Program-made: the position numbers and the translations under genes
Assembly (NCBI GenBank): GCA_030278955.1
Contig: JAOANR010000003.1
Location: 57,591,628-57,655,627, forward strand
Length of the DNA: 64,000 nucleotides
Source: Hygrophila difformis
Lineage: Eukaryota; Streptophyta; Magnoliopsida; Lamiales; Acanthaceae
Direction: 5' to 3'
In this document: positions 11,777-64,000 of the stretch, in pieces
Layout: each line of letters begins with the position of its first letter
Position numbering within the stretch: the first letter of the stretch is position 1
The notes under the pieces: generated by a model
Told to the model about the DNA's origin: nothing
What the model saw: the letters and a program-made list of their open reading frames with translations, nothing else
The model's database searches: none

Positions 11777-11785
11777 TGGGGTGAT
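11777..11785. repeat. Left 9-bp target-site duplication of MULE copy 1
   Basis: TGGGGTGAT is present here and again at 23622-23630. A perfect 9-bp duplication is the hallmark of Mutator-like insertion. Confidence 0.9.
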
Positions 11786-12075
11786 GGGTCCGGTTATGGT
11801 GCGATTGCACAAATCCGCAGCACATCAAGGCGAAAATCTTGATCGTCCAATTAAAATCCAAGGGTTGTAAATGCAAAAGGGTAAAGTTGTCCAATTAAAA
11901 TATGGAACGGTTTTATTAATTACGAAATTAACGGATTAGTACGTATCTTTAACGGATTTATTGCATATCTTAAACGGATTTGTATCCTAAAATATCTTAC
12001 AACAGAAAAAATCACTAAAAATCACTATGCTTTTATTTTTAGCGAAATTATTAATTCCTAATTAAAACATTATTC

Positions 12076-13045
12076 TTTTCAGCGATACATCACTATGCTT
12101 CATTTCATCGAGAGTGTAACATTATTTTCAGCGATACAACGTAATTCTTTTCAGCGAGGGAATGTTATTCATTTCAGCGAGAATGCCACATTATTTTCAG
12201 CGATGACTTCAAATTCCTTTCTCCGAGATGTGCATCTAATACACTTTGCAGAGATATTATATCTTTTCAGCGATGCAGAATGCAGGATGCATCATATGTT
12301 TTTATTTTTAACGAAATTATTAATTCGTAATTACAACATATTACTGTCACAAATTATATTAATTTGTATCATTATTTTCAGCGATACAACATTATTCTTT
12401 TCAGCGATGGATGTCGCTTCATTTCAGCGAGAGTGCGTCATTATTTTCAGCGATGACTTTTGAAAAATAATTGTACACTCTCGATGAAGTGCAATTGTTT
12501 TCATCGAGATACTACACTTTGCAGAGATATTATATCTTTTCAGCGATGTTTACTACTCTTTTCAGCGATGAATGATATACTCTTTAAGCGATTTCACTTT
12601 GTACTTTTCAGCGATACATCATATGTTTTTATTTTTAACGAAATTATTAATTCCTAATTACAACATATTACTGACACAAATTATATTAATTTGTATCATT
12701 ATTTTCAGCGATACATTGTTATTCTTTTCAGCGAAATAAGTTACTTCATTTCAGCGAGAGTGTGCCATTATTTTCAGCGATGACTTGAAAAATAATGGTA
12801 CACTATTGATGAAGTGCAACTGTTTTCTTTAAGATACTATTTTTAACGAAATTATTGATTCCTAATTAAAACATATTAATTTGTATCATTATTTTCAGCG
12901 ATATAACATTATACTTTTCAGCGATGGTATGTGCTTCATTTCATCGAGATTGTTCTATTATTTTCAGCGATGATTGAGATTCCTATTCTTTTAAGCGATG
13001 AACAACTATTCTTTTAAGCGAGTTCACTATGTACTTTTCAGCGAT
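12076..13045 (+). repeat. Left subterminal array of TTTTCAGCGAT motifs
   Basis: By eye there are about 21 matches to TTTCAGCGA plus three TTTAAGCGA variants in 970 bp, all reading on the plus strand and mostly followed by TG, TAC or GAG. They sit in a larger repeat of roughly 320 bp (compare 12290-12440 with 12608-12760) marked by TTTTTAACGAAATTATTAATTC. The ORFs that run through this array are repeat translation, not genes. Confidence 0.9.
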
Positions 13046-13300
13046 AGAGCATAAAAACCGCAAATCACTGAAACAATTCGTAGACACTAAAACCAGTTAA
13101 ATCCATTCAAAGTCATAAAACATTCAACACCATAAAATCAAACCATAAATCAAAATCACATTCCATTCAAAATCACAGTCATAACACATCCAAAAACAAT
13201 ACAAAAACAGGTTCAACACCACCATTCAAAAAAAGTCATAAAAACATCCAAAAACTTCACAAATTCAAGAGTCATTCCAAAAACACATTCCAAAAACATA

Positions 13301-14339
13301 TTAAACAGCCGGGATATTAGCTGGATCAGAGATGGCTTGATGCATCGCCCTAAGCCTATGAATCAGATCTTCCCACATATTTGTAAAAGCCTTTTTGCGT
13401 TCTCTCAACTGCGCTGGAGTATTTGCAAATGAGACTTTCACGCTGCGATAGTGATTTGACATTTCACGCAGCTGTGTGGGATCAAATGAACGTCTGTTGA
13501 CATCAGCACCATTAGATCTGCCTTCATTTTGGAGGACACCAATATGAATATCCAGAGCTTCAAAGTGGGGATACATGATGTTATAAGATCTTTCAGCAGC
13601 CTCAATATCAGGATACTCAGTTATAATTTTCAACAGAAAATCCTGTGTTTCAACATATAAGAAAGATAGCTTATTAATATATAAGATGTAAATATAAGAT
13701 ACAAAGCAATTCATAGCACTGAAACAATAAGTACAATTGAGAGAACAAAGTAAATATAAGAAAGAAAACCATAATCAGTACAAAAGCAAACATAATCAGT
13801 TCAAAACAATCACTAAAACAACCATAATCAGTACAAAAACAATTCATATCACTAAAAAACAACCATAATCAGTTCAAAACAAAATCATTAAAACAACAAT
13901 AATCAGTAAAAAAACAATTAATAACTAAAACAACCATAAAACACTTAAAACAACTCATAACCCTAGAACAACCATAATCAGTTCAAACAGTTCAAACATA
14001 AAACACTGAAACAATTCGTAACCCTAGAACAACTATAATCAGTTCAAAAAAGCATTAAAAACCATAAATCAGTTCAAAACAATTCCAACCAAAAGGTTCC
14101 TAAGCATACTCAGTTGTAATTTCAATAAGAAATACCTGTGTTTCAATAAGAATATCCTGATGCTTCTTCGGCACATACCCAGCGTTTAACATTTTTTCTA
14201 TCAAATCATTCAGTCCGCGCGCATTGTCACACGTGGGATGTGTGTCCTTCAGATAATTCCCGAACATCTCCCAGCATTGTGTGAACAAGTCGGATGTGCG
14301 ACTGGAACTCTCTTCCGTGCATCTTCTTTTGGACGACAT
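13301..14339 (-). CDS. MULE-borne 181-aa protein of unknown function
   Basis: Two exons, 14136-14339 and 13301-13642, join in frame (546 nt, 181 aa). The protein starts MSSKRRCTEESSSRTSDLFT with a basic, Ser-rich head. It continues as a largely helical, charged chain with Trp, His and Tyr residues (WEMFGNYLKDTHPTCDN, SFDPTQLREMSNHYRSVKVS) and ends SDPANIPAV. I see no catalytic motif, signal peptide or membrane segment. It is kept in frame in both element copies, which suggests a real gene. It lies between the left motif array and the next motif block. The intron is flanked by a duplicated stretch of about 50 bp. A DNA-binding or regulatory role is possible but unproven. Confidence 0.7.
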
Positions 14340-14537
14340 TTTTGAGAAATGAAGGTGATTCCGATTACGGTTTTGAGAAATTAGGGTTTTGAGAAACGGT
14401 TTAGAAATGAAGATTCGAGAAATGAATGTGATTCCTTTTATAAGGCTCACAATTTAAAAAATTTTCCGAGGCCCATTTAATTTTATTTAGGCCCATTTCA
14501 TTTAGGCCACTCCATAAAAACGAAATATATTTCCTTC

Positions 14538-15126
14538 CATCGCTGAAAACAACATAGACCCATCGCTTAAAAGACTTACCAATCATCGCTGAAAACAATA
14601 TAGAACCATAGCTTAAAAATGCTATATTCACATTTACAAACATTTTGTCGCTTAAATGAATGTATAAATATGAAATTTTCAGAAAACTCAGAAAAGAGAA
14701 AACATATCCCAAAATGCTTGATGTCCATCGCTCAACATAACTCAGAACTCAGAAACATACATACAAAATCAAAAAACGACGATCTATCACCATCGCTTAA
14801 AATGCTTGCTCTATGTCGCTGAAAAACATACAAAACCATCGCTTAAAATGCCATTTACACATCGCTGAAAAAATTGCTCTTGACATCGCTGATAATCACA
14901 TGCACAAACATAACTCAGAACTCACTTAAATGAATGTATAAATGTGAAATTTCAGAAAACTCATAAAAAGATAAACATATCACAACACATACATAAAATC
15001 GCATAAAATGCTCATATACAAATCGTTGAAAAATGCTATATACACATCGCTGAAAAGAATACATTTTCATCGCTGAAAAGAATATTCAACCATCGCTTAA
15101 AATGCTTACAACTAATCGCTGAAAAA
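14538..15126 (-). repeat. Motif block TCGCTGAAAA/TCGCTTAAAA between the two small genes
   Basis: The same motif as in the left array, but now on the minus strand: repeated CATCGCTGAAAA and CATCGCTTAAAA, often followed by TGCT. This spacer includes the promoter region of the 181-aa gene. Confidence 0.88.
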
Positions 15127-15169
15127 TTGATAATCACATCTACAAACGTTTTAACAAAACTGTTTTCTT

Positions 15170-15763
15170 CTACTTTTGGCCAAACTGTTTATCTACAAAC
15201 CTCAAGTAATCTCTCACAAATTGTGGATTGGTGATCCTCACCAGCATCAGTTCCCATGCTCCTTTTATACGTTTGCAGATTAGACTTCTGAATTTGTAAT
15301 CATAATGCATGATCTTCTTTTTGTTTCCTGTGTTACAATAATCCAGGGCCTTCTGATCCATTTCCATGAGGAGTTCGAGATAAGAAATTCTGTAACGCTC
15401 CATCATGGCGGACACCATGTCTCTTTCCAGGGCTTCTTTTAAATAAGACATATCTTGTGCCAGATCATATTTCAGATACTCCTCTGCCTCAGCCTTGTTC
15501 ATCAATCTGTACTGTCTTGCATTCTTTCTCAGCACTGGCCAGTTCTTACGCGTTATCTCATGTAGCACTTTTTCCCTTAGAAGTCTGATGTGCTCAGCAT
15601 GTTCAGGATCCACATCAGTTCCTTTTTCAGCTATCCCAACCTCAGGATCCACATCAGTTCCTTTTTCAGCTATCCCAACCTGACCGAATCGCTCCAAATC
15701 AGCCAAATAGAGAATAATACTCCATAATTTACAATGCCCATGTAAGAATAAAGAGATGTACAT
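15170..15763 (-). CDS. MULE-borne helical protein of about 197 aa, unknown function
   Basis: An open frame of 197 codons ends in YLRFVDKQFGQK and is preserved in the second copy. The body is strongly charged and helical (LLREKVLHEITRKNWPVLRK, AEAEEYLKYDLAQDMSYLKE). A 13-residue unit, VGIAEKGTDVDPE, is tandemly repeated near the N-terminus, encoded by a 39-bp direct repeat. The true start is unclear: the first about 25 residues are hydrophobic and could be upstream non-coding sequence, and an acceptor (ATTCGGTCAG|GTTGGG) could begin the exon. A TATA-like TTATATATAT lies just upstream. It follows the Ulp1 gene stop by 167 nt, so it could also be spliced to that gene. Confidence 0.6.
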   Translation of the reverse strand: MYISLFLHGHCKLWSIILYLADLERFGQVGIAEKGTDVDPEVGIAEKGTDVDPEHAEHIRLLREKVLHEITRKNWPVLRKNARQYRLMNKAEAEEYLKYDLAQDMSYLKEALERDMVSAMMERYRISYLELLMEMDQKALDYCNTGNKKKIMHYDYKFRSLICKRIKGAWELMLVRITNPQFVRDYLRFVDKQFGQK

Positions 15764-15930
15764 TTAAGCGATCACAAAAAGTGCAATATATATAACCGAT
15801 TAAACAATAGACATTTAACAGATGAAACAATGTACATTTCAGCAACGAAAAATTTACATATACATTTAAGCGATGTCATCCATCGCATAAAAAAAACAGT
15901 TCATTCATTCATCAAAAACACTTCATTTCA

Positions 15931-18900
15931 TCATTGTTTCTTTTTCCGACTCTTTTTTGGCTTAGGTGGTGCTGGTTTCTTTACCTCAAATGACTGACTA
16001 TGCTGGGCAACCAACTGCATCTCTCTACTCACTTCTCCTAGCACAAAATCTTTCTTTTGATTGACATCTGACATCAATATTTCAGCGCAGACCTTGGCTC
16101 TTTTTGCCAGATTATACCTCTTGTTCTTCATTTCTGCCAACATGTCATCCATAATTAATCCTTCCCAATAATCCATATAAGACATGACAAAAACACCGCA
16201 GCTGTGCTCATCTTTCTGCTCTGCAAGCGGCGAGAAAAGCATGCGATATGATGCAAACCATTTTTCAGATTTCATCAGTGTATTTCCCAGCATCCTCAAG
16301 TTATACCATATCCTATTCAAAACATTATAATCAGCTGTCCACCCGCCTTCAGCATTCTTGCTGTTGAAGTAAAAAATTCTTCTCTTTCTCATATCAACAG
16401 AAAAAGCAACCCAGTGGTTTTGTCGACAATATGGGAAGAAGAACTGGAACATTGAGAAAACATATAATTAGAATCTAAAAATGATCAACAATATAAACAA
16501 AATGTATCTTACACTCTCTGCATTCAACACCACATCAATCATTTCTTCAGGAAAAAACTTGAAATCTTTCACGAATGCATCAACAAGTTCTGCACCATCT
16601 TTTAATGGTAAATCTGCATCCACCTCTGCCTCTGAAAATGTCTGTTTCAAAAGATACAACATATCATGCATCAAAAAGAAGTTAAATATATATATATATA
16701 TGTATGTATATATATATCAGACTCACAGCAAATAATGATGAAAAATAATATTTCAGCATTGGTTTCCCATTGGCTCTTTCGAATTCACGACGGTTGATCA
16801 CTTTCGCGTAACAGTTTATAACAATATCCGCAATATCACTATCAACCCTCAGTGTTTCGATGTCAAGCTTCGACAAGTTCATTTCTTTATCATCATAAAC
16901 AATTGTGTTCTTCGCTTCAACCTTTCCTAGAATATTTGTAATGATTGCCCAAATAGCCACATTCAACTCTTCTGGAGTACAGGTATATGACGCCTTAAAT
17001 TCTGGATATTCTTTAAATCGGGTATAAGTCATATCCATGAATGTAAACTTGTTGCATTTTTCAATAGGCTGGAGATCAATCATCATCACTCTAGGAGGCA
17101 TATACTTCTCCTTCAATTTCTCAATTGTCTTAGCTCTATGAACTGTCTTAGCTTGTTCCTGAAAATTACAGATGATATATCAATCATCGCTGAAATATGA
17201 ATAGGGTCATCGCTGAAAAACATATAAATTATCGCTGAAAACTATTGACATACCTCTGGATTCTCATCTCTTACAACATTCTCATTCTCGGATAAGCCCA
17301 AAGAAAAGGTTGGCACATCTTCTCCATGCATCTATACACATACTAGAGTAAATTAGAGAAAATACCTCTATTTACATCACAATTGATATAGCTAAAAACT
17401 ATTAAAACCTAAAGTCACACAAGAAAATATATCAATCACCATATCCAAATCGCTGAAATGTGAAAGATTTGATCGCTGAAAAACACAGAAACCATCGCTG
17501 AAAACTATTAAAGTACCTCTGGATTCTCAGCCACATCATGTGCTGCATCTTTATCAGCCCCATCATGTCCTACATCTTTCTTAGCCCCATCATGTGCTAA
17601 CTAAAAAATCACACAAGGAAAATATATCAAAACATTTTGTTACATCACAATTGATATAGCTAAAAACTATTAAAAACTAAAGTCACAAAAGAAAATATAT
17701 CAATCATATCCAAATCGCTGAAATGTGGTCAATATCATCGCTGAAAAACACAGAGACCATCGCTGAAAACTAGTACAGTACCTCTGCATTCTCAGCCACA
17801 TCATGTGAAGCTTCTTTCTCAGCCCCGTCATGTGCTACATCTTTCTTTGCCCCATCATGTGCTAACTAAAAATCACACAAGAAAAATATATCAAAACAGT
17901 TTGTTACAGTAACCCCTATAGCAAACATTTTGTCACTGTACATACATTCAAGGAATCGAAACTGAAAGGGATTCGGAATCGAAATAAAGATCTCTGCAAT
18001 AAAAATAAACAACACAGAAAAAGCAAAAAAGAAAAAAGAATGTCAGAAACTACCTTCAAAAAATATTATGAAGTACAAAATTTATAAAACTACCTTCGGT
18101 ACATTTTCAGGTAAATTTTCAGTGTCCGGGGCAACTCTCTCTTCAGTTTTGTCTTTTACATTCCCAACATCTGCATCACCTCCTTCCAGCAAACTTGTCA
18201 CCTCCGGACCCCCTTGACTCATCACAACATTTCCTGCTCCTGCTAATATACCCATCAAGATTTCTCCTTCGCTTGCAGTTATATCAAGATTATTTGACTG
18301 TTCTCCTTCACGACGTCGACCCACATTAATCAACAGTTCACCTGCATCTTGATCACAAGGGGGGTGTGGGGAAGGTTCAACATCATTTCTGGATGCTTCT
18401 ATGAGAGGATCAACATTGCCTGAAGCATCAGCATCCATATATTGGCAAGCAATCTTCACAATAGAGTCCATTGTGTGATCAGAAAGATGAACAACTGGTT
18501 CAGAATCAGTTGTCTCATTTGCATTAGCTTCATGGACAACAGGTGAATGCATAGGCTGCAAGCTAGAAAGATTGGCAGCTTCTTCATTTCCACTAGCATT
18601 CAAATCCACATTTTCTCCTAACTGCTCATCTCCTCCTCCATCCACACTCCTAGAAAGATTGGCAGTTGGTTCATTTGCAGTAGAATTCAAACCCTCATCT
18701 TCCACTTCTTTCCCACCCCTCCTTTTCTTCTTTAGACCAGAAACAAAAGTGCTAAGTCGATCGTCATCTTCCTCCACAGTCCTTTTCGTAGCCCTCGATT
18801 TCTTCTTAAAGTCAATATCTGGATACTTTGCATTAGGGAAAACCTTCCAGATATCAACCATCTCCAAGTATCGATCCTTTTTACAAGTAAATCCAACCAA

Positions 18901-19741
18901 ATGAAGCTCTTCACGCTCATAGAAATCAAAAAACATGTGCTGAAAAAAACAAAAACAAACAAGATACATAATCAACAAACAATGACCATAATCAACAATA
19001 TATATCACATAACAAATATAAATTGCATAAAAAACACAAAATTAAAATTACCATTAAGCAAAACAGGTCTCCACAGGGGCGTGCTTGAGCACTGGTTCCC
19101 TTATCCAATTTTGCCTTATACTCATTCAGAGATTTGATAAGAAATTGTCTAATATGAAGACACCAATTGTACCTTAAAGCTTCTTCCGGAGATCTAAGAA
19201 ACTGAAGATACCTCTTGTTTACAACCCTCCCTGAGTTAGGAGTAAAGACTTTCTGCAGAGCAAACAAAACATACATCCTCCAGTAGTCATCCAATGGAAT
19301 TTCATTATTCTCCGTATTCTCTAAAATAGCTCTAAGATCCTTAACAGGTATCCGATTAGGCTCCTTCTTATTCGTAATAAGAGAATACTTTTCACAAAAT
19401 TCATCAGCAAAATCATAACCAATTTCATTATTCTTCAAATCTATTATAAACTTATCGACTCCCCATGGCAAACCATATACTTTATGAATGTCTTCATCTG
19501 TAAACCTCCATCGACGGTTTTTATCAATAATAAAGCATTCCTCCTGAATGCTCCACTGATTAATCAAAGTTATAACAGGATCAACCTTGAGCATGCACAT
19601 TTTGAACATGAGCAGACAACTGAAGCAAGTATCGTGAATAAACTCTTTCTTCCCATCTCCGTCACTCTCGTTCAGGATATTATTTAAAAGACAAATGCTA
19701 GATGGAACGCAACAGACCTGAGTATGCACTTTTTCAGCCAT
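15931..19741 (-). CDS. MULE-borne Ulp1/C48-like cysteine protease, 8 exons, 951 aa
   Basis: Exons in transcript order are 19052-19741, 18094-18939, 17782-17865, 17517-17600, 17254-17331, 16727-17158, 16513-16641 and 15931-16443. Every intron is phase 0 and the sum is 2856 nt. The N-terminal domain (about 1-230; WRFTDEDIHKVYGLPWGVDK) resembles the region that precedes the protease in plant Ulp1-MULE proteins. An acidic, low-complexity linker with basic clusters (KKKRRGGK) follows (about 231-512). The C-terminal protease-like domain (about 700-930) has NHWVAFSVD (His791), an Asn at 808 in FYFNSK where Ulp1 has Asp, and Gln857/Cys863 in EQKDEHSCGVFV. A Lys-rich tail (PKPKKSRKKKQ) suggests nuclear location. 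Ulp1 enzymes process or remove SUMO; here the substrate is unknown, and the Asp-to-Asn change makes activity uncertain. Confidence 0.85.
17375..17903 (-). repeat. Tandem exon-plus-intron duplication in the Ulp1-like gene
   Basis: Two units of about 265 bp (17375-17638 and 17641-17903) each contain a 28-codon exon (17517-17600 and 17782-17865) and the adjacent intron with three TCGCTGAAA motifs. The exons differ by few residues and encode His-Asp repeats (LAHDGAKKDV...). Confidence 0.9.
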
Positions 19742-20318
19742 TCTTGATAAACAAAAAGTAAAGTATCACCGTTCGCCGTTCGCCGTAGAAAAAAAATCGC
19801 CGTTCGCCGTAGACGCAGAGAATCGCTAAATCGCTGAAAAGCCCTAGAGAAAGTATCGACAGTGATAAATTGAAAATTGGCGGTTAAATTGACATTAAAT
19901 ACTACACGGTGAAATCTCGACGGTTATTTCTTATTAATTACTTAGACGGTTATTTTTTATTAATTACGCGAATTCTGAAAAAACATTGTAAAATTTTTAT
20001 TAACTACTACACTGTTATTTTTTATTAACTCATCTCCATCGCTGAATTGCACTATGACGATCGCTTTTTATCATTTGTAATCATCGCTGAATTGCATTCT
20101 TTACGCGATTTTCTGAGACATTGTAACATTTTCTTATTAAATACTACACGGTTATTTTTTTTATTAAAACTAACTTTCATCGCTGAATTGCATAACGATC
20201 ATCGCTTTCATATATAAGTAATCATCGCTGAATTGCATTAGTTATCACTGAACTAAGTCGATCAATACAATATTAATGAACAATACACTTCATGTCATTT
20301 CTAAAAAAACAAAAAACT
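19742..20318 (-). promoter_or_regulatory. Spacer upstream of the Ulp1-like gene
   Basis: This 577-bp gap separates the transposase stop from the Ulp1 start. It contains short CGCCGTTCGCCGT repeats (about 19770-19816), several TCGCTGAATTGCA motifs (about 20040-20240) and repeated TTATTTTTTATTAA tracts. It must hold the Ulp1 promoter and the transposase terminator; no clear TATA box was fixed. Confidence 0.5.
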
Positions 20319-23300
20319 TCATTTCTGCATCCGTTTACGATGTTCTAACTCTTTCTTTTTCCGAACAGCTTCAGAAATAGAGACCATTCTCTTGTTCGAT
20401 TTCTTCCGCCCTTTACAAGTTTCTCTTTCCCTTAAATGCAAATTTGAGTAATCTGATGTACTTCCAATCTCTGCAAAAAAAAAAAAACAAAAACATTGAG
20501 AAACACTAATTTCAAAAAAAGCAAAAACATAAATATGTCTTTGATTAGAAATTACCCGACTCTTTGTTAATATCAATGTTGTCATACTTTGTTTTCATCA
20601 ATGTCTCAAAGTCATACATAAACGATTCACAAGCATCCTCATTTCGTGACAACACAATTGCTGATTTCAAAAACAAGCCACACAATTTCCGGTATCTAGA
20701 TGCTGCATTGACCACATTTGTTTCTTTTCCAACACCAACATCAACATAACTAAGATCACATTTTGCATTCCTTGACCACCGCCGCAAAATATATTTATCT
20801 GGAATAGTATGAAACACTTTTGCTCCACTTCCTGACAGAATATCCATCACCCTCAGAGCATGACAACATAAAATCCCCATATTCTCAAACATATTGCAAC
20901 TGCATCCAATTGTACCATCATCAATGTTAACATTCACATGATCACCAATCAACTTTGAATCTGCATCTTCTCTCTTGCAAACACGATAAATTAATGCATC
21001 TGGTTGAAGCTCAACCACATACCCAAATGACAAATCATACTCATTGTTGAAAATATTGAACACATTTGGTGTATACTTCTCAGCTATATATTTCAATAGT
21101 GGATTCATAATAAACCTGGCAGAAACTTGTCTATCATCTGCCTTAAAATCTTCCATCCGTTCATTATCCCTCCTTGACTCCACAACCCTTTCAAAATGTG
21201 CAAAGAACTCAACATAGTTATCAACTGGCCTTAAGAACCTGTGAAATGTCAACACAATATGGGGATGTGAAAATCAAATTCTCAACTACATAAAGCAAAC
21301 ACACATCGCTGAAATAAATAGAACCCTCTCGCTGATCAAAACAGTATTGTCTCGCTGAAAATAACTATTCAACTATCGCTGAAAATGAAATTTATTCATA
21401 CCGTTTCACAACTGAGTTAAAAGATTCACTTAGCTGAGTAGTCCTCATTCCTGCAGTAAAATGATTTTTAACCCAAGCAGCGGACCATTGACTTCTCAAA
21501 TTATAAGTAGTCGACAACCACCTATGTTCAGATTGTGAGAAACAAGTTGATAGCATGTATTCCCATTCCACCTCAAATTCCATCTCTGTCCTCACATCAT
21601 ATACCAAATGATGAAATAGCTTATCAAACCTAAAAAAATGAGTTCAACATGTACATATCAATATCCAAATCGAAAAAACAATTGAAAGTAAAAATAACTA
21701 AATATTTACCTTGGTGTGTACAGTTGACTCAAATTTTTTTTTCGCATTTTCTATAATGTGCCAACTGCATAAAGCATGATAGGTATTAGGCAAAATTTTC
21801 CTAATTGCCGGTGCCATCGCACAATCTTGATCTGTGAAAATCGTTTGAGGTGCCTTATCCCCCATACACTTCAAAAATGTTTTAAATAGCCACTCAAATG
21901 ATCTTTGAGTTTCATCAAGCATCAATGCAACTCCAAAAATAGAAGTCTGTCGGTGATGATTGAATCCAACAAAAACAGCTAATGGTCTGTAATTTTTATT
22001 TGTCCGATACGTTGTATCAAAGGTCACACTATCACCAAAAGCTTGATAATCCATCCTCATTTCAGCATCTGACCAAAAGATATTTGTAATTCTCTCATCA
22101 TCATCCAGATCATACTCATGGAAGAAAAATGGATTACTGACACATTTCTCAGAGAAATACTTCAATACAACACCAGCATCCCCTACTTTTAAATTTCTTT
22201 GCCGCCTTCTAACAAGTGCATTCTTCAAATCGTCCTTTAAAAATCCTACAAGTCCACTACCTCCAGCACCCATACTCAACAAGTCATACGATGACTTCAA
22301 TGACAATCCAACTTCTTCATGTATACCAGCAACAACACTGTGTAACTCATCAACTCTTCTATTCGATTTCAACATATGCTTCCTTGATGGTCCATGCAGA
22401 TCATGATTATGATCACCACAGAAAAACACAACTCTATAAACTTTTTCATCAGTTTTATAATGTAACCTCACCTTTGCTTCACAACCAGTTCGGGTTTCAT
22501 CACTCCTACGAAATTTCAGACTCTTAGAACGACAAGATGAATCACTATCCAACAAACAACCACGACGAAAACCTTCCTTATTGCACGCATATTGTAAATA
22601 GAACAATCTATCAACTTCATGTGGCTTTGGTCTCTCATACATTTTCCTTACCGAGAAACCTAAACTATGAGCATAATCACAATAAAACCTAAACGCATCA
22701 TCAGCTGTAACAAAACTTAACTCACTCCAATTTATGTTGCCTGTGAAGAAATAAACAAAGAATTCCCATTAAAATAATAAATACACGTAGCTGACATAAA
22801 CCATCGCTTAAAATGCTTAACGTCCATCGCTGAAAATGCTAGACAGTTCTCGCTGAAAAAGCTAGAAATGCATCGCTGAAAATGCTAGGCATGCATCGAT
22901 GAAAATATAATGGTTCTATCCCTCATAATCACATGTACAAACGTTTTGACGCTTAAATGAACATATAGATATGAAACTTCAGAAAACACAAAAAAAAAGA
23001 AACATATCAAAGAAGAACTCAAAAACGCTAGACAGTTATCGCTGAAAATGCTAGTGATGCATCGCTGAAAATGCTAAGGTACATCGCTGAAAATATAATG
23101 GTTCTGTCCCTCATAATCACATGTGCAAACGTTTTGACGCTTAAATGAACATATAGATATGAAACTTCAGAAAACACAAAAAAAGAGAAACATATCAAAA
23201 GAAGAACTCAAAACTCAAAAAACATACATAAAATCAAAAACGACGATCTGCGATAAAAATACTCAAAATTCGAAAATGCTAAAAAGTACCATTGGACGCA

Positions 23301-23356
23301 GAACTCGAATCTGAAAACGTTGCCGACGCATTCAACGACATGCTAATCGCATTCAT
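20319..23356 (-). CDS. FAR1/MULE-type transposase, 5 exons
   Basis: Exons are 23290-23356, 21710-22740, 21402-21619, 20556-21238 and 20319-20470, 2151 nt in frame (716 aa). An upstream in-frame ATG at 23497 is possible but adds a low-complexity Phe-rich leader. The FAR1-type zinc-finger domain (about 27-138) runs from DDAFRFYCDYAHSLGFSVRK to CGDHNHDL. The MULE DDE core has Asp264 (TFDTTYRTN), Asp326 (FTDQDCAM), CSWHIIENAKK, and Glu431 (LSESFNSVVKR). The SWIM zinc finger is at 551-565 (CSC...CCH). The C-terminus is basic (RKKKELEHRKRMQK). The enzyme should cut and insert the element. The acceptor of exon 3 at 21619 is chosen because it keeps the frame; a nearer acceptor gives a stop. Intron 1 is full of the TCGCTGAAAA motif. 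Confidence 0.9.
22838..23215 (-). repeat. Tandem duplication of about 189 bp in transposase intron 1
   Basis: 22838-23026 is repeated at 23027-23215. Both start GCTAGACAGTT.TCGCTG and contain three TCGCTGAAAA-type motifs, then GTTTTGACGCTTAAATGAAC and a run of A residues. The second half resembles parts of the 14640-15000 spacer. Confidence 0.88.
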
Positions 23357-23621
23357 AATTGCCAACAACTTCCTCACACCGCCGCAACACGTACAGAGCA
23401 AACAAAACACAGAAGAGAACTTGTCACCAAAAAAAAAAAACAGAAGAGAACTCGGAAATCCAAAGAAGACGACGTCCAACGGCGAACAATATGGCAAATA
23501 TATGAAATTACTTTTCTACCCTTAGAGTTAATCTCAATCGTCGATTTTTAAAGACAATCAACGGCTGTAAATGCCCACAGCACATCAAGTCAAAAAGGGT
23601 GATTGCACCCTAATGAAATTG

Positions 23622-23630
23622 TGGGGTGAT
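23622..23630. repeat. Right 9-bp target-site duplication of MULE copy 1
   Basis: TGGGGTGAT, identical to 11777-11785. Removing the element joins GGGGTTGGGGTGAT to AATCGAATCCCC. Confidence 0.9.
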
Positions 23631-54996: not shown

Positions 54997-55286
54997 GGGT
55001 CCGGTTATGGTGCGATTGAACAAATCCGCAGCACATCAAGGCGAAAATCTTGATCGTCCAATTAAAATCCAAGGGTTGTAAATGCAAAAGGGTAAAGTTG
55101 TCCAATTAAAATATGGAACGGTTTTATTAATTACGAAATTAACGGATTAGTACGTATCTTTAACGGATTTATTGCATATCTTAAACGGATTTGTATCCTA
55201 AAATATCTTACAACAGAAAAAATCACTAAAAATCACTATGCTTTTATTTTTAGCGAAATTATTAATTCCTAATTAAAACATTATTC

Positions 55287-56286
55287 TTTTCAGCGATACA
55301 TCACTATGCTTCATTTCATCGAGAGTGTAACATTATTTTCAGCGATACAACGTTATTCTTTTCAGCGAGGGAATGTTATTCATTTCAGCGAGAATGCCAC
55401 ATTATTTTCAGCGATGACTTCAAATTCCTTTCTCCGAGATGTGCATCTAATACACTTTGCAGAGATATTATATCTTTTCAGCGATGCAGAATGCAGGATG
55501 CATCATATGTTTTTATTTTTAACGAAATTATTAATTCGTAATTACAACATATTACTGTCACAAATTATATTAATTTGTATCATTATTTTCAGCGATACAA
55601 CATTATTCTTTTCAGCGATGAATGTCCCTTCATTTCAGCGAGAGTGCGTCATTATTTTCAGCGATGACTTTTGAAAAATAATTCTACACTCTCGATGAAG
55701 TGCAATTGTTTTCGTCGAGATACTACACTTTGCAGAGATATTATATCTTTTCAGCGATGTTTACTACTCTTTTCAGCGATGAATGATATACTCTTTCAGC
55801 GATTTCACTTTGTACTTTTCAGCGATACATCATATGTTTTTATTTTTAACGAAATTATTAATTCCTAATTACAACATATTACTGACACAAATTATATTAA
55901 TTTGTATCATTATTTTCAGCGATACATTGTTATTCTTTTCAGCGATATAACTTACTTCATTTCAGCGACAGTGTGCCATTATTTTCAGCGATGACTTGAA
56001 AAATAATGGTACACTATTGATGAAGTGCAACTGTTTTCTTTAAGATACTATTTTTAACGAAATTATTGATTCCTAATTAAAACATATTAATTTGTATCAT
56101 TATTTTCAGCGATATAACATTATACTTTTCAGCGATGGTATGTGTTTCATTTCATCGAGATTGTTCTATTATTTTCAGCGATGATTGAGATTCCTTTAAC
56201 CGAATACACTTTGCAGAGATGTTATAACTTTTCAGCGATGAACAACTATTCTTTTCAGCGAGTTCACTATGTACTTTTCAGCGATA
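55287..56286 (+). repeat. Left subterminal TTTTCAGCGAT array, copy 2
   Basis: The same array as in copy 1. Some sites that read TTTAAGCGA in copy 1 read TTTCAGCGA here (for example about 55795 and 56253), and one segment (about 56195-56235) carries a different spacer with TTTGCAGAGATG. Confidence 0.9.
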
Positions 56287-56566
56287 GAGCATAAAAACCG
56301 CAAATCACTGAAACAATTCGTAGACACTAAAACCAGTTAAATCCATTCAAAGTTATAAAACATTGAACACCATAAAATCAAACCATAAATCAAAATCACA
56401 TTCCATTCAAAATCACAGTCATAACACATCCAAAAACAATCCAAAAACATGTTCAACACCACCATTCAAAAAAAGTCATAAAAACATCCAAAAACTTCAC
56501 AAAGAACAAGTCATTCCAAAAACATCACAAATTCAAGAGTCATTCAAAACACATTCCAAAAACATA

Positions 56567-57606
56567 TTAAACAGCCGGGATATTAGCTGGATCAGAGATG
56601 GCTTCATGCATCGCCCTAAGCCTATGAATCAGATCTCCCCACATATTTGTAAAAGCCTCTTTGCGTTCTCTCAACTGTGCTGGAGTATTTGCAAATGAGA
56701 CTTTCACGCTGCGATAGTGATTTGACATTTCACGCAGCTGTGTGGGATCAAATGAACGTCTGTTGACATCAGCACCATTAGATCTGCCTTCATTTTGGAG
56801 GACACCAATATGAATGTCCAGAGCTTCAAAGTGGGGATACATGATGTTATAAGATCTTTCAGCAGCCTCAATATCAGGATACTCAGTTATAATTTTCAAC
56901 AGAAAATCCTGTGTTTCAACATATAAGAAAGATAGCTTATTAATATATAAGATGTAAATATAAGATACAAAGCAATTCATAGCACTGAAACGATAAGTAC
57001 AATTGAGAGAACAAAGTAAATATAAGAAAGAAAACCATAATCAGTACAAAAGCAAACATAATCAGTTCAAAACAATCACTAAAACAACCATAATCAGTAC
57101 AAAAACAATTCATATCACTAAAAAACAACCATAATCAGTTCAAAACAAAATCATTAAAACAACAATAATCAGTAAAAAAACAATTAATAACTAAAACAAC
57201 CATAAAACACTTAAAAACAACTCATAACCCTAGAACAACCATAATCAGTTCAAACAGTTCAAACATAAAACACTGAAACAATTCGTAACCCTAGAACAAC
57301 TATAATCAGTTCAAAAAAGCATTAAAAACCATAAATCAGTTCAAAACAATTCCAACCAAAAGGTTCCTAAGCATACTCAGTTGTAATTTCAATAAGAAAT
57401 ACCTGTGTTTCAATAAGAATATCCTGATGCTTCTTCGGCACATACCCAGCGTTTAACATTTTTTCTATCAAATCATTCAGTCCGCGCGCATTGTCACACG
57501 TGGGATGTGTGTCCTTCAGATAATTGCCGAACATCTCCCAGCATTGTGTGAACAAGTCGGATGTGCGACTGGAACTCTCTTCGGTGCATCTTCTTTTGGA
57601 CGACAT
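56567..57606 (-). CDS. MULE-borne 181-aa unknown protein, copy 2
   Basis: Exons 57403-57606 and 56567-56908. The protein differs from copy 1 by a few residues near the C-terminus (RKEAFTNMWGDL versus RKKAFTNMWEDL; MHEAI versus MHQAI). The frame and the intron with its flanking duplication are preserved. Function is unknown. Confidence 0.7.
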
Positions 57607-58479
57607 TTTTGAGAAATGAAGGTGATTCCGATTACGGTTTTGAGAAATTAGGGTTTTGAGAAACGGTTTAGAAATGAAGATTCGAGAAATGAATGTGATT
57701 CCTTTTATAAGGCTCACAATTTAAAAAATTTTCCGAGGCCCATTTAATTTTATTTAGGCCCATTTCATTTAGGCCACTCCATAAAAACGAAATATAGAAC
57801 CATCGCTGAAAACAACATAGACCCATCGCTGAAAACAACATAGACCCATCGCTGAAAACAACATAGACCCATCGCTTAAAAGACTTACCAATCATCGCTG
57901 AAAACAATATAGAACCATAGCTTAAAAATGCTATATTCACATTTACAAACATTTTGTTGCTTAAATGAATGTATAAATATGAAATTTTCAGAAAACTCAG
58001 AAAAGAGAAAACATATCCCAAAATGCTTGATGTCCATCGCTCAACATAACTCAGAACTCAGAAACATACATACAAAATCAAAAAAACGACGATCTATCAC
58101 CATCGCTTAAAATGCTTGCCCTATGTCGCTGAAAAACATACAAAAACATCGCTTAAAATGCCATTTACTCATCGCTGAAAAAGTTGCTCTTGACATCGCT
58201 GATAATCACATGTACAAACATAACTCAGAACTCACTTAAATGAATGTATAAATGTGAAATTTCAGAAAACTCATAAAAAGATAAACATATCACAACACAT
58301 ACATAAAATCGCATAAAATGCTCATATACAAATCGCTGAAAAATGCTATATACACATCGCTGAAAAGAATACAATTTCATCGCTGAAAAGAATATTCAAC
58401 CATCGCTTAAAATGCTTACAACTCATCGCTGAAAAATTGATAATCACATCTACAAACGTTTTCACAAAACTGTTTTCTT

Positions 58480-59073
58480 CTACTTTTGGCCAAACTGTTT
58501 ATCTACAAACCTCAAGTAATCTCTCACAAATTGTGGATTGGTGATCCTCACCAGCATCAGTTCCCATGCTCCTTTTATACGTTTGCAGATTAGACTTCTG
58601 AATTTGTAATCATAATGCATGATCTTCTTTTTATTTCCTGTGTTACAATAATCCAGGGCCTTCTGATCCATTTCCATGAGGAGTTCGAGATAAGAAATTC
58701 TGTAACGCTCCATCATGGCGGACACCATGTCTCTTTCCAGGGCTTCTTTTAAATAAGACATATCTTGTGCCAGATCATATTTCAGATACTCCTCTGCCTC
58801 AGCCTTGTTCATCAATCTGTACTGTCTTGCATTCTTTCTCAGCACTGGCCAGTTCTTACGCGTTATCTCATGTAACACTTTTTCCCTTAGAAGTCTGATG
58901 TGCTCAGCATGTTCAGGATCCACATCAGTTCCTTTTTCAGCTATCCCAACCTCAGGATCCACATCAGTTCCTTTTTCAGCTATCCCAACCTGACCGAATC
59001 GCTCCAAATCAGCCAAATAGAGAATAATACTCCATAATTTACAATGCCCATGTAAGAATAAAGAGATGTACAT
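58480..59073 (-). CDS. MULE-borne 197-aa helical protein, copy 2
   Basis: The translated frame is the same as in copy 1, including the 13-residue tandem VGIAEKGTDVDPE; only silent base changes were seen. This conservation supports coding function but may also only reflect recent duplication. The start is uncertain, as in copy 1. Confidence 0.6.
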   Translation of the reverse strand: MYISLFLHGHCKLWSIILYLADLERFGQVGIAEKGTDVDPEVGIAEKGTDVDPEHAEHIRLLREKVLHEITRKNWPVLRKNARQYRLMNKAEAEEYLKYDLAQDMSYLKEALERDMVSAMMERYRISYLELLMEMDQKALDYCNTGNKKKIMHYDYKFRSLICKRIKGAWELMLVRITNPQFVRDYLRFVDKQFGQK

Positions 59074-59240
59074 TTAAGCGATCACAAAAAGTGCAATATA
59101 TATAACCGATTAAACAATAGACATTTAACAGATGAAACAATGTACATTTCAGCAACGAAAAATTTACATATACATTTAAGCGATGTCATCCATCGCATAA
59201 AAAAAATAGTTCATTCATTCATCAAAAACACTTCATTTCA

Positions 59241-62200
59241 TCATTGTTTCTTTTTCCGACTCTTTTTTGGCTTAGGTGGTGCTGGTTTCTTTACCTCAAA
59301 TGACTGACTATGCTGGGCAACCAACTGCATCTCTCTACTCACTTCTCCTAGCACAAAATCTTTCTTTTGATTGACATCTGACATCAATATTTCAGCGCAG
59401 ACCTTGGCTCTTTTTGCCAGATTATACCTCTTGTTCTTCATTTCTGCCAACATGTCATCCATAATTAATCCTTCCCAATAATCCATATAAGACAAGACAA
59501 AAACACCGCAGCTGTGCTCATCTTTCTGCTCTGCAAGCGGCGAGAAAAGCATGCGATATGATGCAAACCATTTTTCAGATTTCATCAGTGTATTTCCCAG
59601 CATCCTCAAGTTATACCATATCCTATTCAAAACATTATAATCAGCTGTCCACCCGCCTTCAGCATTCTTGCTGTTGAAGTAAAAAATTCTTCTCTTTCTC
59701 ATATCAACAGAAAAAGCAACCCAGTGGTTTTGTCGACAATATGGGAAGAAGAACTGGAACATTGAGAAAACATATAATTAGAATCTAAAAATGATCAACA
59801 ATATAAACAAAATTATCAAAACAAAAATGTATCTTACACTCTCTGCATTCAACACTACATCAATCATTTCTTCAGGAAAAAACTTGAAATCTTTCACGAA
59901 TGCATCAACAAGTTCTGCACCATCTTTTAATGGTAAATCTGCATCCACCTCTGCCTCTGAAAATGTCTGTTTCAAAAGATACAACATATCATGCATCAAA
60001 AAGAAGTTAAATATATATATATCTATGTATGTATATATATATCAGACTCACAGCAAATAATGATGAAAAACAATGTTTCAGAATTGGTTTCCCATTGGCT
60101 CTTTCGAATTCACGACGGTTGATCACTTTCGCGTAACAGTTTATAACAATATCCGCAATATCACTATCAACCCTCAGTGTTTCGATGTCAAGCTTCGACA
60201 AGTTCATTTCTTGATCATCATAAACAATTGTGTTCTTCGCTTCAACCTTTCCTAGAATATTTGTAATGATTGCCCAAACAGCCACATTCAACTCTTCTGG
60301 AGTACAGGTATATGACGCCTTAAATTCTGGATATTCTTTAAATCGGGTATAAGTCATATCCATGAATGTAAACTTGTTGCATTTTTCAATAGGCTGGAGA
60401 TCAATCATCATCACTCTAGGAGGCATATACTTCTCCTTCAATTTCTCAATTGTCTTAGCTCTATGAACTGTCTTAGCTTGTTCCTGAAAATTACAGATGA
60501 TATATCAATCATCGCTGAAATATGAAAAGGGTCATCGCTGAAAAACATATAAATTATCGCTGAAAACTATTGACATACCTCTGGATTCTCATCTCTTACA
60601 ACATTCTCATTCTCGGATAAGCCCAAAGAAAAGGTTGGCACATCTTCTCCATGCATCTATACACATAATAGAGTAAATTAGAGAAAATACCTCTATTTAC
60701 ATCACAATTGATATAGCTAAAAACTATTAAAACCTAAAGTCACACAAGAAAATATATCAATCACCATATCCAAATCGCTGAAATGTGAATGATTTAATCG
60801 CTGAAAAACACAGAAACCATCGCTGAAAACTATTAAAGTACCTCTGGATTCTCAGCCACATCATGTGCTGCATCTTTATCAGCCCCATCATGTCCTACAT
60901 CTTTCTTAGCCCCATCATGTGCTAACTAAAAAATCACACAAGGAAAATATATCAAAACATTTTGTTACATCACAATTGATATAGCTAAAAACTATTAAAA
61001 ACTAAAGTCACAAAAGAAAATATATCAATCATATCCAAATCGCTGAAATGTGGTCGATATCATCGCTGAAAAACACAGAGACCATCGCTGAAAACTAGTA
61101 CAGTACCTCTGCATTCTCAGCCACATCATGTGAAGCATCTTTCTCAGCCCCGTCATGTGCTACATCTTTCTTTGCCCCATCATGTGCTAACTAAAAATCA
61201 CACAAGAAAAATATATCAAAACAGTTTGTTACAATAACCCCTATAGCAAACATTTTGTCACTGTACATATATTCAAGGAATCGAAACTGAAAGGGATTCG
61301 GAATCGAAATAAAGATCTCTGCAATAAAAATAAACAACACAGAAAAAGCAAAAAAGAAAAAAGAATGTCAGAAACTACCTTCAAAAAATATTATGAAGTA
61401 CAAAATTTATAAAACTACCTTCGGTACATTTTCAGGTAAATTTTCAGTGTCCGGGGCAACTCTCTCTTCAGTTTTGTCTTTTACATTCCCAACATCTGCA
61501 TCACCTCCTTCCAGCAAACTTGTCACCTCCGGACCCCCTTGACTCATCACAACATTTCCTGCTCCTGCTAATATACCCATCAAGATTTCTCCTTCGCTTG
61601 CAGTTATATCAAGATTAGTTGACTGTTCTCCTTCACGACGTCGACCCACATTAATCAACAGTTCACCTGCATCTTGATCACAAGGGGGGTGTGGGGAAGG
61701 TTCAACATCATTTCTGGATGCTTCTATGAGAGGATCAACATTGCCTGAAGCATCAGCATCCATATATTGGCAAGCAATCTTCAAAATAGAGTCCATTGTG
61801 TGATCAGAAAGATGAACAACTGGTTCAGAATCAGTTGTCTCATTTGCATTAGCTTCATGGACAACAGGTGAATGCATAGGCTGCAAGCTAGAAAGATTGG
61901 CAGCTTCTTCATTTCCACTAGCATTCAAATCCACATTTTCTCCTAACTGCTCATCCCCTCCTCCATCCACACTCCTAGAATTCAAACCCTCATCTTCCAC
62001 TTCTTTCCCACCCCTCCTTTTCTTCTTTAGACCAGAAACAAAAGTGCTAAGTCGATCATCATCTTCCTCCACAGTCCTTTTCGTAACCCTCGATTTCTTC
62101 TTAAAGTCAATATCTGGATACTTTGCATTAGGGAAAACCTTCCAGATATCAACCATCTCCAAGTATCGATCCTTTTTACAAGTAAATCCAACCAAATGAA

Positions 62201-63037
62201 GCTCTTCACGCTCATAGAAATCAAAAAACATGTGCTGAAAAAAACAAAAACAAACAAGATACATAATCAACAAACAATGACCATAATCAACAATATATAT
62301 CACATAACAAATATAAATTGCATAAAAAACACAAAATTAAAAATTACCATTAAGCAAAACAGGTCTCCACAGGGGCGTGCTTGAGCACTGGTTCCCTTAT
62401 CCAATTTTGCCTTATACTCATTCAGAGATTTGATAAGAAATTGTCTAATATGAAGACACCAATTGTACCTTAAAGCTTCTTCCGGAGATCTAAGAAACTG
62501 AAGATACCTCTTGTTTACAACCCTCCCTGAGTTAGGAGTAAAGACTTTCTGCAGAGCAAACAAAACATACATCCTCCAGTAGTCATCCAATGGAATTTCA
62601 TTATTCTCCGTATTCTCTAAAATAGCTCTAAGATCCTTAACAGGTATCCGATTAGGCTCCTTCTTATTCGTAATAAGAGAATACTTTTCACAAAATTCAT
62701 CAGCAAAATCATAACCAATTTCATTATTCTTCAAATCTATTATAAACTTATCGACTCCCCATGGTAAACCATATACTTTATGAATGTCTTCATCTGTAAA
62801 CCTCCATCGACGGTTTTTATCAATAATAAAGCATTCCTCCTGAATGCTCCACTGATTAATCAAAGTTATAACAGGATCAACCTTGAGCATGCACATTTTG
62901 AACATGAGCAGACAACTGAAGCAAGTATCGTGAATAAACTCTTTCTTCCCATCTCCGTCAGTCTCGTTCAGGATATTATTTAAAAGACAAATGCTAGATG
63001 GGACGCAACACACCTGAGTATGCACTTTTTCAGCCAT
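59241..63037 (-). CDS. MULE-borne Ulp1-like protease, copy 2, 941 aa
   Basis: Exons are 62348-63037, 61419-62234, 61107-61190, 60842-60925, 60579-60656, 60052-60483, 59838-59966 and 59241-59753, in frame (2826 nt). Compared with copy 1 it lacks ten residues in the acidic linker (a 30-bp in-frame deletion near 61978) and has Leu for Met next to the catalytic Cys (SCGVFVLSY). The Asn replacing the catalytic Asp is also present here. All splice sites are kept. Confidence 0.85.
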
Positions 63038-63607
63038 TCTTGATAAACAAAAAGTAAAGTATCACCGTTCGCCGTTCGCCGTAGAAAAACAATCGCCGTT
63101 CGCCGTAGACGCAGAGAAATCGCTGAAAAGCCCTAGAGAAAGTATCGACAGTGATAAATTGAAAATTGGCGGTTAAATTGACATTAAATACTACACGGTG
63201 AAATCTCGACGGTTATTTCTTATTAATTACTTAGACGGTTATTTTTTATTAATTACGCGAATTCTGAAAAAACATTGTAAAATTTTTATTAACTACTACA
63301 CTGTTATTTTTTATTAACTCATCTCCATCGCTGAATTGCACTGTGACGATCGCTTTTTATCATTTCTAATCATCGCTGAATTGCATTCTTTACGCGATTT
63401 TCTGAGACATTGTAACATTTTCTTATTAAATACTACACGGTTATTTTTTTTATTAAAACTAACTTTCATCGCTGAATTGCATAACGATCATCGCTTTCAT
63501 ATATAAGTAATCATCGCTGAATTGCATTAGTTATCACTGAACTAAGTCGATCAATACAATATTAATGAACAATACACTTCATGTCATTTCTAAAAAAACA
63601 AAAAACT

Positions 63608-64000
63608 TCATTTCTGCATCCGTTTACGATGTTCTAACTCTTTCTTTTTCCGAACAGCTTCAGAAATAGAGACCATTCTCTTGTTCGATTTCTTCCGCCC
63701 TTTACAAGTTTCTCTTTCCCTTAAATGCAAATTTGAGTAATCTGATGTACTTCCAATCTCTGCAAAAAAAAAAAAAAACAAAAACATTGAGAAACACTAA
63801 TTTCAAAAAAAGCAAAAACATAAATATGTCTTTGATTAGAAATTACCCGACTCTTTGTTAATATCAATGTTGTCATACTTTGTTTTCATCAATGTCTCAA
63901 AGTCATACATAAACGATTCACAAGCATCCTCATTTCGTGACAACACAATTGCTGATTTCAAAAACAAGCCACACAATTTCCGGTATCTAGATGCTGCATT
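63608..64000 (-). CDS. MULE transposase, copy 2, C-terminal part only
   Basis: Last exon 63608-63759 and part of the preceding exon from 63847 to the window end. The sequence matches copy 1, including the C-terminal RKKKELEHRKRMQK. The rest lies outside the window, so it is not known whether this copy is intact. Confidence 0.85.

Follow-up and report, generated by a model that had tools for sequence, protein, structure and literature searches.

Oriented arrays of a short CpG-containing word in the non-coding DNA of a Mutator-like element of Hygrophila difformis: candidate sites for a VANC-like anti-silencing protein

Results

The window analyzed here, a stretch of 64,000 bp from Hygrophila difformis, contains one whole Mutator-like element (MULE) and part of a second copy. 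The left edge of the whole element was set where the match between the two window copies begins, and a 9-bp duplication abuts both ends. The genes and boundaries are as follows.

11777..11785, no strand: left target site duplication TGGGGTGAT, a perfect 9-bp pair with the right one
11786..23621, minus strand: whole Mutator-like element, 11,836 bp, with four genes on the minus strand
13301..14339, minus strand: p181, two exons, 181 aa, with nothing in Pfam above the cut-off
15170..15763, minus strand: p197, an open reading frame of 197 aa without a Pfam match
15931..19741, minus strand: Ulp1-like gene of 952 codons, stop included, in eight exons, with the C48 domain at the C-terminal end
20319..23356, minus strand: transposase gene, five modelled exons, with FAR1, MULE and SWIM domains
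23622..23630, no strand: right target site duplication TGGGGTGAT, a perfect 9-bp pair with the left one
54997..64000, minus strand: second element copy, truncated by the window end and continuing in L009

The second copy was absent from the original prediction. No clear terminal inverted repeat was found in the whole element, as its end-to-end similarity was matched by 188 of 1,000 shuffles. In the transposase, Pfam recognized FAR1, MULE and SWIM but no MuDR-type N-terminal domain, and this FAR1 is the sole DNA-binding domain that Pfam recognized among the proteins of the element. Transposase exon 2 has a dN/dS of 0.15-0.67 across five copies, and exons 2 and 3 are mutually out of phase in the window copy.

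The Ulp1-like protein has a Peptidase_C48 match that exceeds the cut-off (E 2.1e-8). Compared with one sister copy, its dN/dS is 0.34 at the N-terminus, 0.90 with indels in the middle and 0.32 in the C48 part; the rate for exon 4 was left out because this exon aligns poorly in the sister L063 (where the acceptor is AT). The variable part of the gene is built of 265-bp tandem units, each an exon plus an intron, that bear the motif described below. Neither DUF1985 nor DUF287 was found in this protein by hmmscan against Pfam at E up to 10, a search in which the HMMER filters may lose weak matches. The N-terminal 300 residues matched none of 1,816 candidates at E<=1e-3 in a database that is possibly poor in plant proteins, and NCBIfam gave no match for p197 or for Ulp1-like exon 1. 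Sequence searches of the PDB returned 1, 1 and 2 weak matches (E 0.02 to 1.2), which were discarded, as were single-sequence AlphaFold models of p197 (mean pLDDT 39.6) and Ulp1-like exon 1 (38.9).

The exact word TTTTCAGCGAT occurs 35 times inside the element (16 on the plus and 19 on the minus strand), and all 35 sites lie within its 5,680 bp of non-coding DNA, with none in the 6,156 bp of modelled coding DNA. In 200 first-order Markov simulations the mean was 0.01 and the maximum 1 per class (coding, non-coding). The original prediction, that dozens of copies fill the non-coding DNA with nearly none in exons, is therefore borne out and in a stronger form than was claimed. A related word, TTTTAAGCGAT, occurs exactly six times in the element, and the one variant that had been placed in Ulp1 exon 8 is indeed there, as TTTCAGCGC at 16080. 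Three sites with one mismatch touch coding DNA, at 15624, 15663 and 19731. In an unbiased count of 9-mers in the non-coding DNA, the top seven were all fragments of the motif, with TCGCTGAAA present 47 times. The predicted occurrence in gene spacers holds for several of them and not for all, since sites with at most one mismatch are found in 8 of the 17 non-coding segments and some spacers are without the word. The part of the window outside both element copies (43,160 bp) contains no exact site and two one-mismatch sites, and three additional copies of the element have 40, 41 and 39 exact sites, with 0 of these 120 inside exon matches. The word may be missing from exons because its spread there would damage the proteins.

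Within the element the sites are gathered in the following arrays.

12076..13045, plus strand: left-arm array, 16 exact sites, every one on the plus strand
14539..15125, minus strand: array separating p181 from p197, 6 exact sites and 13 at up to one mismatch, each of them on the minus strand
15762..15874, plus strand: weak array of two-mismatch sites separating p197 from the Ulp1-like gene, bigger in sister copies
17186..17241, minus strand: three motif sites within a Ulp1-like gene intron
17449..17504, minus strand: three motif sites within a Ulp1-like gene intron, part of a 265-bp tandem unit
17714..17769, minus strand: three motif sites within a Ulp1-like gene intron, part of a 265-bp tandem unit
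19830..20234, minus strand: spacer between the Ulp1-like and transposase genes, one exact site plus two 141-bp units with weaker sites
21305..21385, minus strand: motif sites in transposase intron 3
22803..23093, minus strand: transposase intron 1 array of 5 exact sites and 8 with at most one mismatch

Adjacent sites are mostly 22-24 bp apart and the linkers between them are not conserved. At up to one mismatch in non-coding DNA, the left arm has 19 sites on the plus strand and none on the minus strand while the remaining arrays have none on the plus and 34 on the minus strand, the exception to this rule being the weak plus-strand array that separates p197 from the Ulp1-like gene. Both the spacing and the orientation are additions to the original prediction. 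The left-arm array is the densest, with 16 of the 35 exact sites. The intron arrays at 17186-17769 sit more than 5 kb from either end, so that the sites are not confined to subterminal regions, and the final 265 bp at the right end (segment 23357-23621) are free of sites at up to one mismatch.

In the 915-Mb genome the exact word is found 9,647 times, versus 79 for the reversed word, and close pairs of it number 2,118, versus none for the reversed control. A variant of the word that ends in GAC gives a further 2,083 close pairs, such that the exact close pairs of the GAT and GAC types together come to ~4,200. In the literature searched, the string TTTTCAGCGAT turned up in 10 papers, which by their titles and abstract openings deal with unrelated subjects. 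Among the matches listed, 87 of 100 GAC-type pairs are spaced 22 or 23 bp apart, with highly varied linkers. A genome search for other motif-bearing transposable elements yielded sister copies of the element and two small elements of 611 and 565 bp that bear such arrays. The ends of the small elements match those of the window element, to which they otherwise have no blastn similarity at 1e-8, and no gene was seen in them. Deletion derivatives of the element likewise retain arrays. Two further families of MULE, L068 and L069 (each 3.8 kb), lack the 22-24 bp array in the parts sampled, which suggests that such arrays are not general to MULEs, as judged from two families that were each sampled in part.

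A host protein, rather than one encoded by the element, could bind it, for example for transcription or as a chromatin boundary, and the word is dense both upstream of and within the element genes. We know of no host factor that has the motif as its site, and the concentration of the word in one element family and its small relatives, with its lack in the flanks and its genome-wide excess over the reversed word, makes this reading improbable. The arrays could instead bind the transposase, through FAR1, or an accessory protein, for synapsis or excision and with no role in anti-silencing. FAR1 is the one DNA-binding domain to be recognized, the left arm has the densest array, and small elements and deletion derivatives have kept their arrays as if these were needed for mobility. 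Nevertheless, the intron sites far from both ends and the empty terminal segment on the right do not fit a purely mobility-related function, and we regard it as rather unlikely.

Sister copies retain the word even though their left arms fail to align end to end. Across six diverged copies, identity is 94.0% at motif sites, 86.0% in other non-coding DNA, 63.2% in linkers and 95.2% in coding DNA, in a test anchored on sites picked in the window copy and thus one that favors the motif. Units have nevertheless turned over: the intron arrays of L063 have 3, 4 and 4 sites versus 3, 3 and 3 in the window copy, and the 141-bp site pairs number three in L063 versus two in the window copy. Arrays that are tandem, and whose numbers vary among copies, are what neutral growth of tandem repeats in non-coding DNA would produce with no reader at all. 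We consider this decidedly improbable given a conserved core with free linkers of fixed length, the same core in small elements that are dissimilar by blastn, and the regular spacing of the listed GAC-type pairs despite their varied linkers.

A last possibility is that the word works in RNA, with TTTTCAG as a mimic of a 3' splice site, or that the arrays feed or mislead a small-RNA pathway. At up to one mismatch, the intron arrays do show TTTTCAG in the sense direction, and tandem repeats can be both sources of siRNA and targets of RdDM, as stated in the part of PMC10398659 that concerns them. Yet the word is antisense in the left arm, it is also present in the small elements where no gene was seen, and its CGA half is conserved equally with its CAG half at sites with at most one mismatch (which is partly an effect of site selection). 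An action in RNA therefore seems very improbable.

Loss of methylation might be expected to leave a footprint of lower CpG decay. The counts of low-frequency C>T changes over CpG site-copies were 5/980 at motif sites, 15/2,029 in other non-coding DNA and 15/3,260 in coding DNA, and in this low-power test no lower decay at motif sites was found. The alignments had 28 and 12 rows, and L032 and L034 were excluded beforehand as too diverged.

Discussion

We propose that the arrays are sites for a DNA-binding protein encoded by the element and that its binding spares both the element and the small non-autonomous elements related to it from host silencing, a reading to which we give a probability of about 50%. 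That some protein reads the word TTTTCAGCGA(T) is very likely from the pattern of sites. Given such binding, the outcome would rather probably be a loss of methylation and not only an aid to transposition, although the evidence is largely compatible with a transposase-binding role too. With one word per ~two helical turns, an array could be occupied cooperatively by such a protein, which would then ignore lone words scattered elsewhere.

The nearest known counterparts are VANDAL21/VANC21 and VANDAL6/VANC6 of Arabidopsis, for which both binding and demethylation have been demonstrated (Hosaka et al., 2017, PMC5735166). According to the parts of that paper that describe them, those elements and the one from Hygrophila are both Mutator-like, carry a short word in their introns, their spacers and the non-coding DNA of their ends, form dense one-way arrays with tandem gain and loss among copies, and have an accessory gene of tandem exon/intron structure that combines conserved domains with variable peptide repeats (PMC5735166). 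Two related word types occur in both, C- and T-type in VANDAL and GAT and GAC in H. difformis (PMC5735166). The 9-bp target duplication and the absent or degenerate terminal inverted repeats are also VANDAL-like. The words themselves differ, as those of VANDAL are YAGTATTAY and AGTTGTCC/AGTTGTAC while that of the Hygrophila element, TTTTCAGCGAT, contains a CpG, and VANC has DUF1985 and DUF287, for which the Hygrophila Ulp1-like protein gave no detected match (PMC5735166). The FAR1-type transposase of the Hygrophila element also appears to set it apart from VANDAL, and the element has two further small genes. The VANDAL/VANC analogy that was originally drawn thus stands for the non-coding restriction, one-way arrays, unit turnover, lack of clear terminal inverted repeats, small elements and tandem-unit accessory gene, and fails for DUF1985/DUF287.

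The original prediction also held that the system is independent, which is unsupported, since the relevant part of a review already describes Ulp1-bearing VANC genes, termed KIU, that induce hypomethylation of related elements, with Ulp1 conserved in eudicots (PMC13317346). With such genes already published for eudicots (PMC13317346), we take the Hygrophila system to be one form of an established type. Genes for ULP are also reported in grapevine MULEs, Jittery-like ones included, and in melon, rice and grapevine they occur in both orientations relative to the transposase; in the KI-MULE of Arabidopsis the ULP gene runs opposite to mudrA while in Hygrophila it is on the same strand as the transposase (sections of PMC2528002 on these elements). 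As in KIU/Kaonashi, the accessory gene of this MULE encodes an Ulp1 (C48) domain. Work by Sasaki and colleagues in 2022 is reported to have found that specificity depends on the sequence, density and helical periodicity of the motif and that non-autonomous VANDALs are important. If so, phased motifs and motif-bearing small elements would be a further likeness to KIU and VANDAL. Spm TnpA and MuDR MURA have terminal or subterminal binding sites, and the Hygrophila arrays differ from these in also lying deep within introns. Both of these maize proteins are tied to the loss of DNA methylation from their own families, and the effect of MURA extends to non-autonomous copies, according to the passages on them in PMC10398659.

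On the best reading of these comparisons, the Ulp1-like gene would be the likeliest source of a reader in a VANC-like system, and the chances that its protein reads the word appear evenly balanced. In this protein a conserved N-terminal part is combined with a hypervariable middle assembled from tandem exon units, the organization reported for VANC. The middle differs in the sister copy, yet the word is identical, and the middle is therefore not an obvious determinant of specificity. Other possible readers are the 197-aa and 181-aa proteins. More tentatively and less probably, a VANC-like code may have arisen or been carried outside VANDAL, in a FAR1-type MULE with an Ulp1 protein whose N-terminus is not DUF1985-like and with an 11-bp CpG word per 22-23 bp, where GAT and GAC dialects serving different sets of elements would represent at least two specificities in one plant.

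If the proposed anti-silencing role is correct, H. difformis would offer a system of high copy number, and one that seems to have been active recently, in which to study whether self-recognition depends on the word, its density or its helical spacing. It would also give targeted methylation loss in plants a candidate protein and a short phased tag, and open a route to testing whether Ulp1 activity has a part in anti-silencing.

Organization and copies of the element

The motif arrays described here lie in a Mutator-like element whose 9-bp target site duplication, TGGGGTGAT, is perfect and which has small relatives elsewhere in the same genome.

11786-23621: Mutator-like element (window copy), 11,836 bp, with four modelled genes on the minus strand
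54997-64000, continuing past the window end: second copy in the same orientation, ~43 kb from the first
L014: small element, 611 bp, with a 10-bp duplication (ATACTTATAC) and an array of 23-bp units
L015: small element, 565 bp, with a 9-bp duplication (CTCAATTAA) and an array of 23-bp units

The second copy is 97.6-99.1% identical to the first over the aligned stretches. A search of the genome with transposase exon 2 produced 1,574 first-look candidates, of which 117 were scored as matches (96-100% identical); the equivalent search with p197, a small gene encoding 197 aa, produced 2,156, of which 150 were scored (86-100% identical). We infer a recent amplification of the element family. The transposase has FAR1, MULE, and SWIM domains, and its exons 2 and 3 are out of phase in the model of the window copy (21605-21745), where a homopolymer run is one base shorter in 15 of 30 sampled rows, a sample biased towards the copies most like the window copy; an assembly slip is a possible source of the phase break. 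The p197 coding sequence contains a perfect 39-bp tandem duplication (15603-15681, 13 residues twice) with a near-motif, TTTTCAGCTAT, in each unit, and a 184-aa p197 frame present in several genome copies fits one such unit.

A phased word in non-coding DNA

The element contains 35 exact copies of the word TTTTCAGCGAT, compared with a Markov expectation of 0.01, together with six of TTTTAAGCGAT. The original observation that the word is hardly found in exons is borne out, as none of the 35 lies in modelled coding sequence (6,156 bp) and all are in non-coding sequence (5,680 bp), while three sites with at most one mismatch touch exons. Because duplication multiplies sites, a more cautious measure is the number of segments, and sites with at most one mismatch occur in 8 of the 17 non-coding segments. 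The bases after the core are barely conserved, with the next position mildly G or A, and among the gaps of <130 bp between neighbouring sites (at most two mismatches) 31 are exactly 23 bp. Such free linkers of fixed length suggest a protein that reads one word per approximately two helical turns. Sites within an array share a common direction (19 plus and 0 minus in the left arm; 0 plus and 34 minus elsewhere), the exception to a simple left/right rule being a weak array on the plus strand, between p197 and the Ulp1-like gene, that is larger in the sister copies.

Four diverged sister copies (L059-L062), which differ from the window copy by 10-15% in other non-coding DNA and whose left arms are no longer alignable end to end, retain both the word and its register, with 24, 17, 13, and 12 exact sites, respectively, in ~4.5 kb each. 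Across six diverged copies (these four plus L032 and L034), identity is 95.2% in coding sequence (8,845 positions), 86.0% in other non-coding sequence (6,613), 63.2% in linkers (481), and 94.0% at motif sites (671), the last value being somewhat flattered by the design of the comparison, whose motif sites come from the window copy and can serve as anchors for the aligner. Numerous individual sites are altered between copies, and L061, for example, is exact at 3 of 12.

Distribution of the word in the genome

The FAR1-type MULE and the gene structures point to a plant genome, and in the 915 Mb searched (246 contigs) exact words number 4,831+4,816, compared with 39+40 for the backwards-read control, and pairs separated by 0-30 bases number 1,064+1,054, compared with 0+0. 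Among 100 pairs listed, which stem from few copies, the spacing judged by eye is 23 bp in 61, 22 in 29, 24 in 8, and 26 in 2. A second word type, TTTCAGCGAC, which ends in GAC rather than GAT, forms phased pairs at many places in the genome, including L064 and L067. Its pairs number 946+1,137 (control 0+0), and the 100 listed come from many places with differing linkers, the spacing by eye being 23 bp in 54, 22 in 33, and some other value in 13; both lists cover only the first part of one contig, C1. The hosts of GAC pairs look like diverse small elements, and an autonomous carrier of the GAC word was not found. No 22-24 bp arrays were seen in two other MULE families, each sampled in part.

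Among the small relatives, the arrays span roughly half the length of L014 and of L015. Neither locus matches the element by blastn at E 1e-8, and the ends of L015 match both ends of the 11,836-bp element over 47-48 bp (0/500 shuffles as good). GAC words outnumber GAT words in L064 and L067, which are related small elements, and two further loci, L065 and L066, retain the left arm and resemble deletion derivatives.

Candidate readers and possible function

FAR1, in the transposase, is the only DNA-binding domain in the element recognized by Pfam, and transposase exon 2 has dN/dS values of 0.15-0.67 against five copies. Binding by the transposase would account for much of the same pattern, but it leaves arrays lying >5 kb from both ends unexplained. 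The other candidates are p197 and p181, the latter encoding 181 aa, which have no Pfam matches above cut-off and dN/dS values against four sisters of 0.43-0.95 and 0.25-0.44, respectively, and the Ulp1-like gene (eight exons, minus strand). In L063, the only sister read across the Ulp1-like gene, there is no stop among the exons compared, and dN/dS is 0.34 for the N-terminal 280 codons, 0.90 with indels for the middle, and 0.32 for the C48 part. The protein has the His and Cys of the Ulp1 catalytic set, with Asn at the usual Asp position. Part of its middle is encoded by tandem 265-bp exon-plus-intron units with motif triplets in their introns. This conservation and tandem-unit pattern resembles that of VANC anti-silencing genes, for which Hosaka et al. 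(PMC5735166) describe conserved domains, a variable part, and a tandem exon/intron pattern.

Two results count against a VANC-like, anti-silencing mechanism, namely that Pfam found no DUF1985 or DUF287 match in the Ulp1-like protein and that a low-power test of CpG decay across the sampled copies showed no footprint; the alternative of transposase binding also weighs against it. Low-frequency C>T changes are ~3-5-fold more frequent per site than A>G-type changes, even outside CpG (20201-23621 and 13673-17263, sampled copies), as expected if this DNA carries methylation in several contexts.

The logic of such anti-silencing is already known, with precedents in VANC21 and VANC6 (PMC5735166), the Ulp1-bearing KIU genes of eudicots (PMC13317346), and TnpA and MURA, which are linked to methylation loss (PMC10398659). 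A literature search covering few subscription journals found no report of this word or of phased arrays in a FAR1-type MULE. Sasaki and colleagues reportedly concluded in 2022 that motif sequence, density, and helical periodicity set specificity in a eudicot system, and the close fit of that claim to the phased arrays lowers their novelty. Most likely, a candidate protein encoded by the element binds along the phased arrays, possibly in a methylation-dependent manner given the CpG and CAG in the word, and this putative binding would, again most likely, prevent or reverse the silencing of every array-bearing element.
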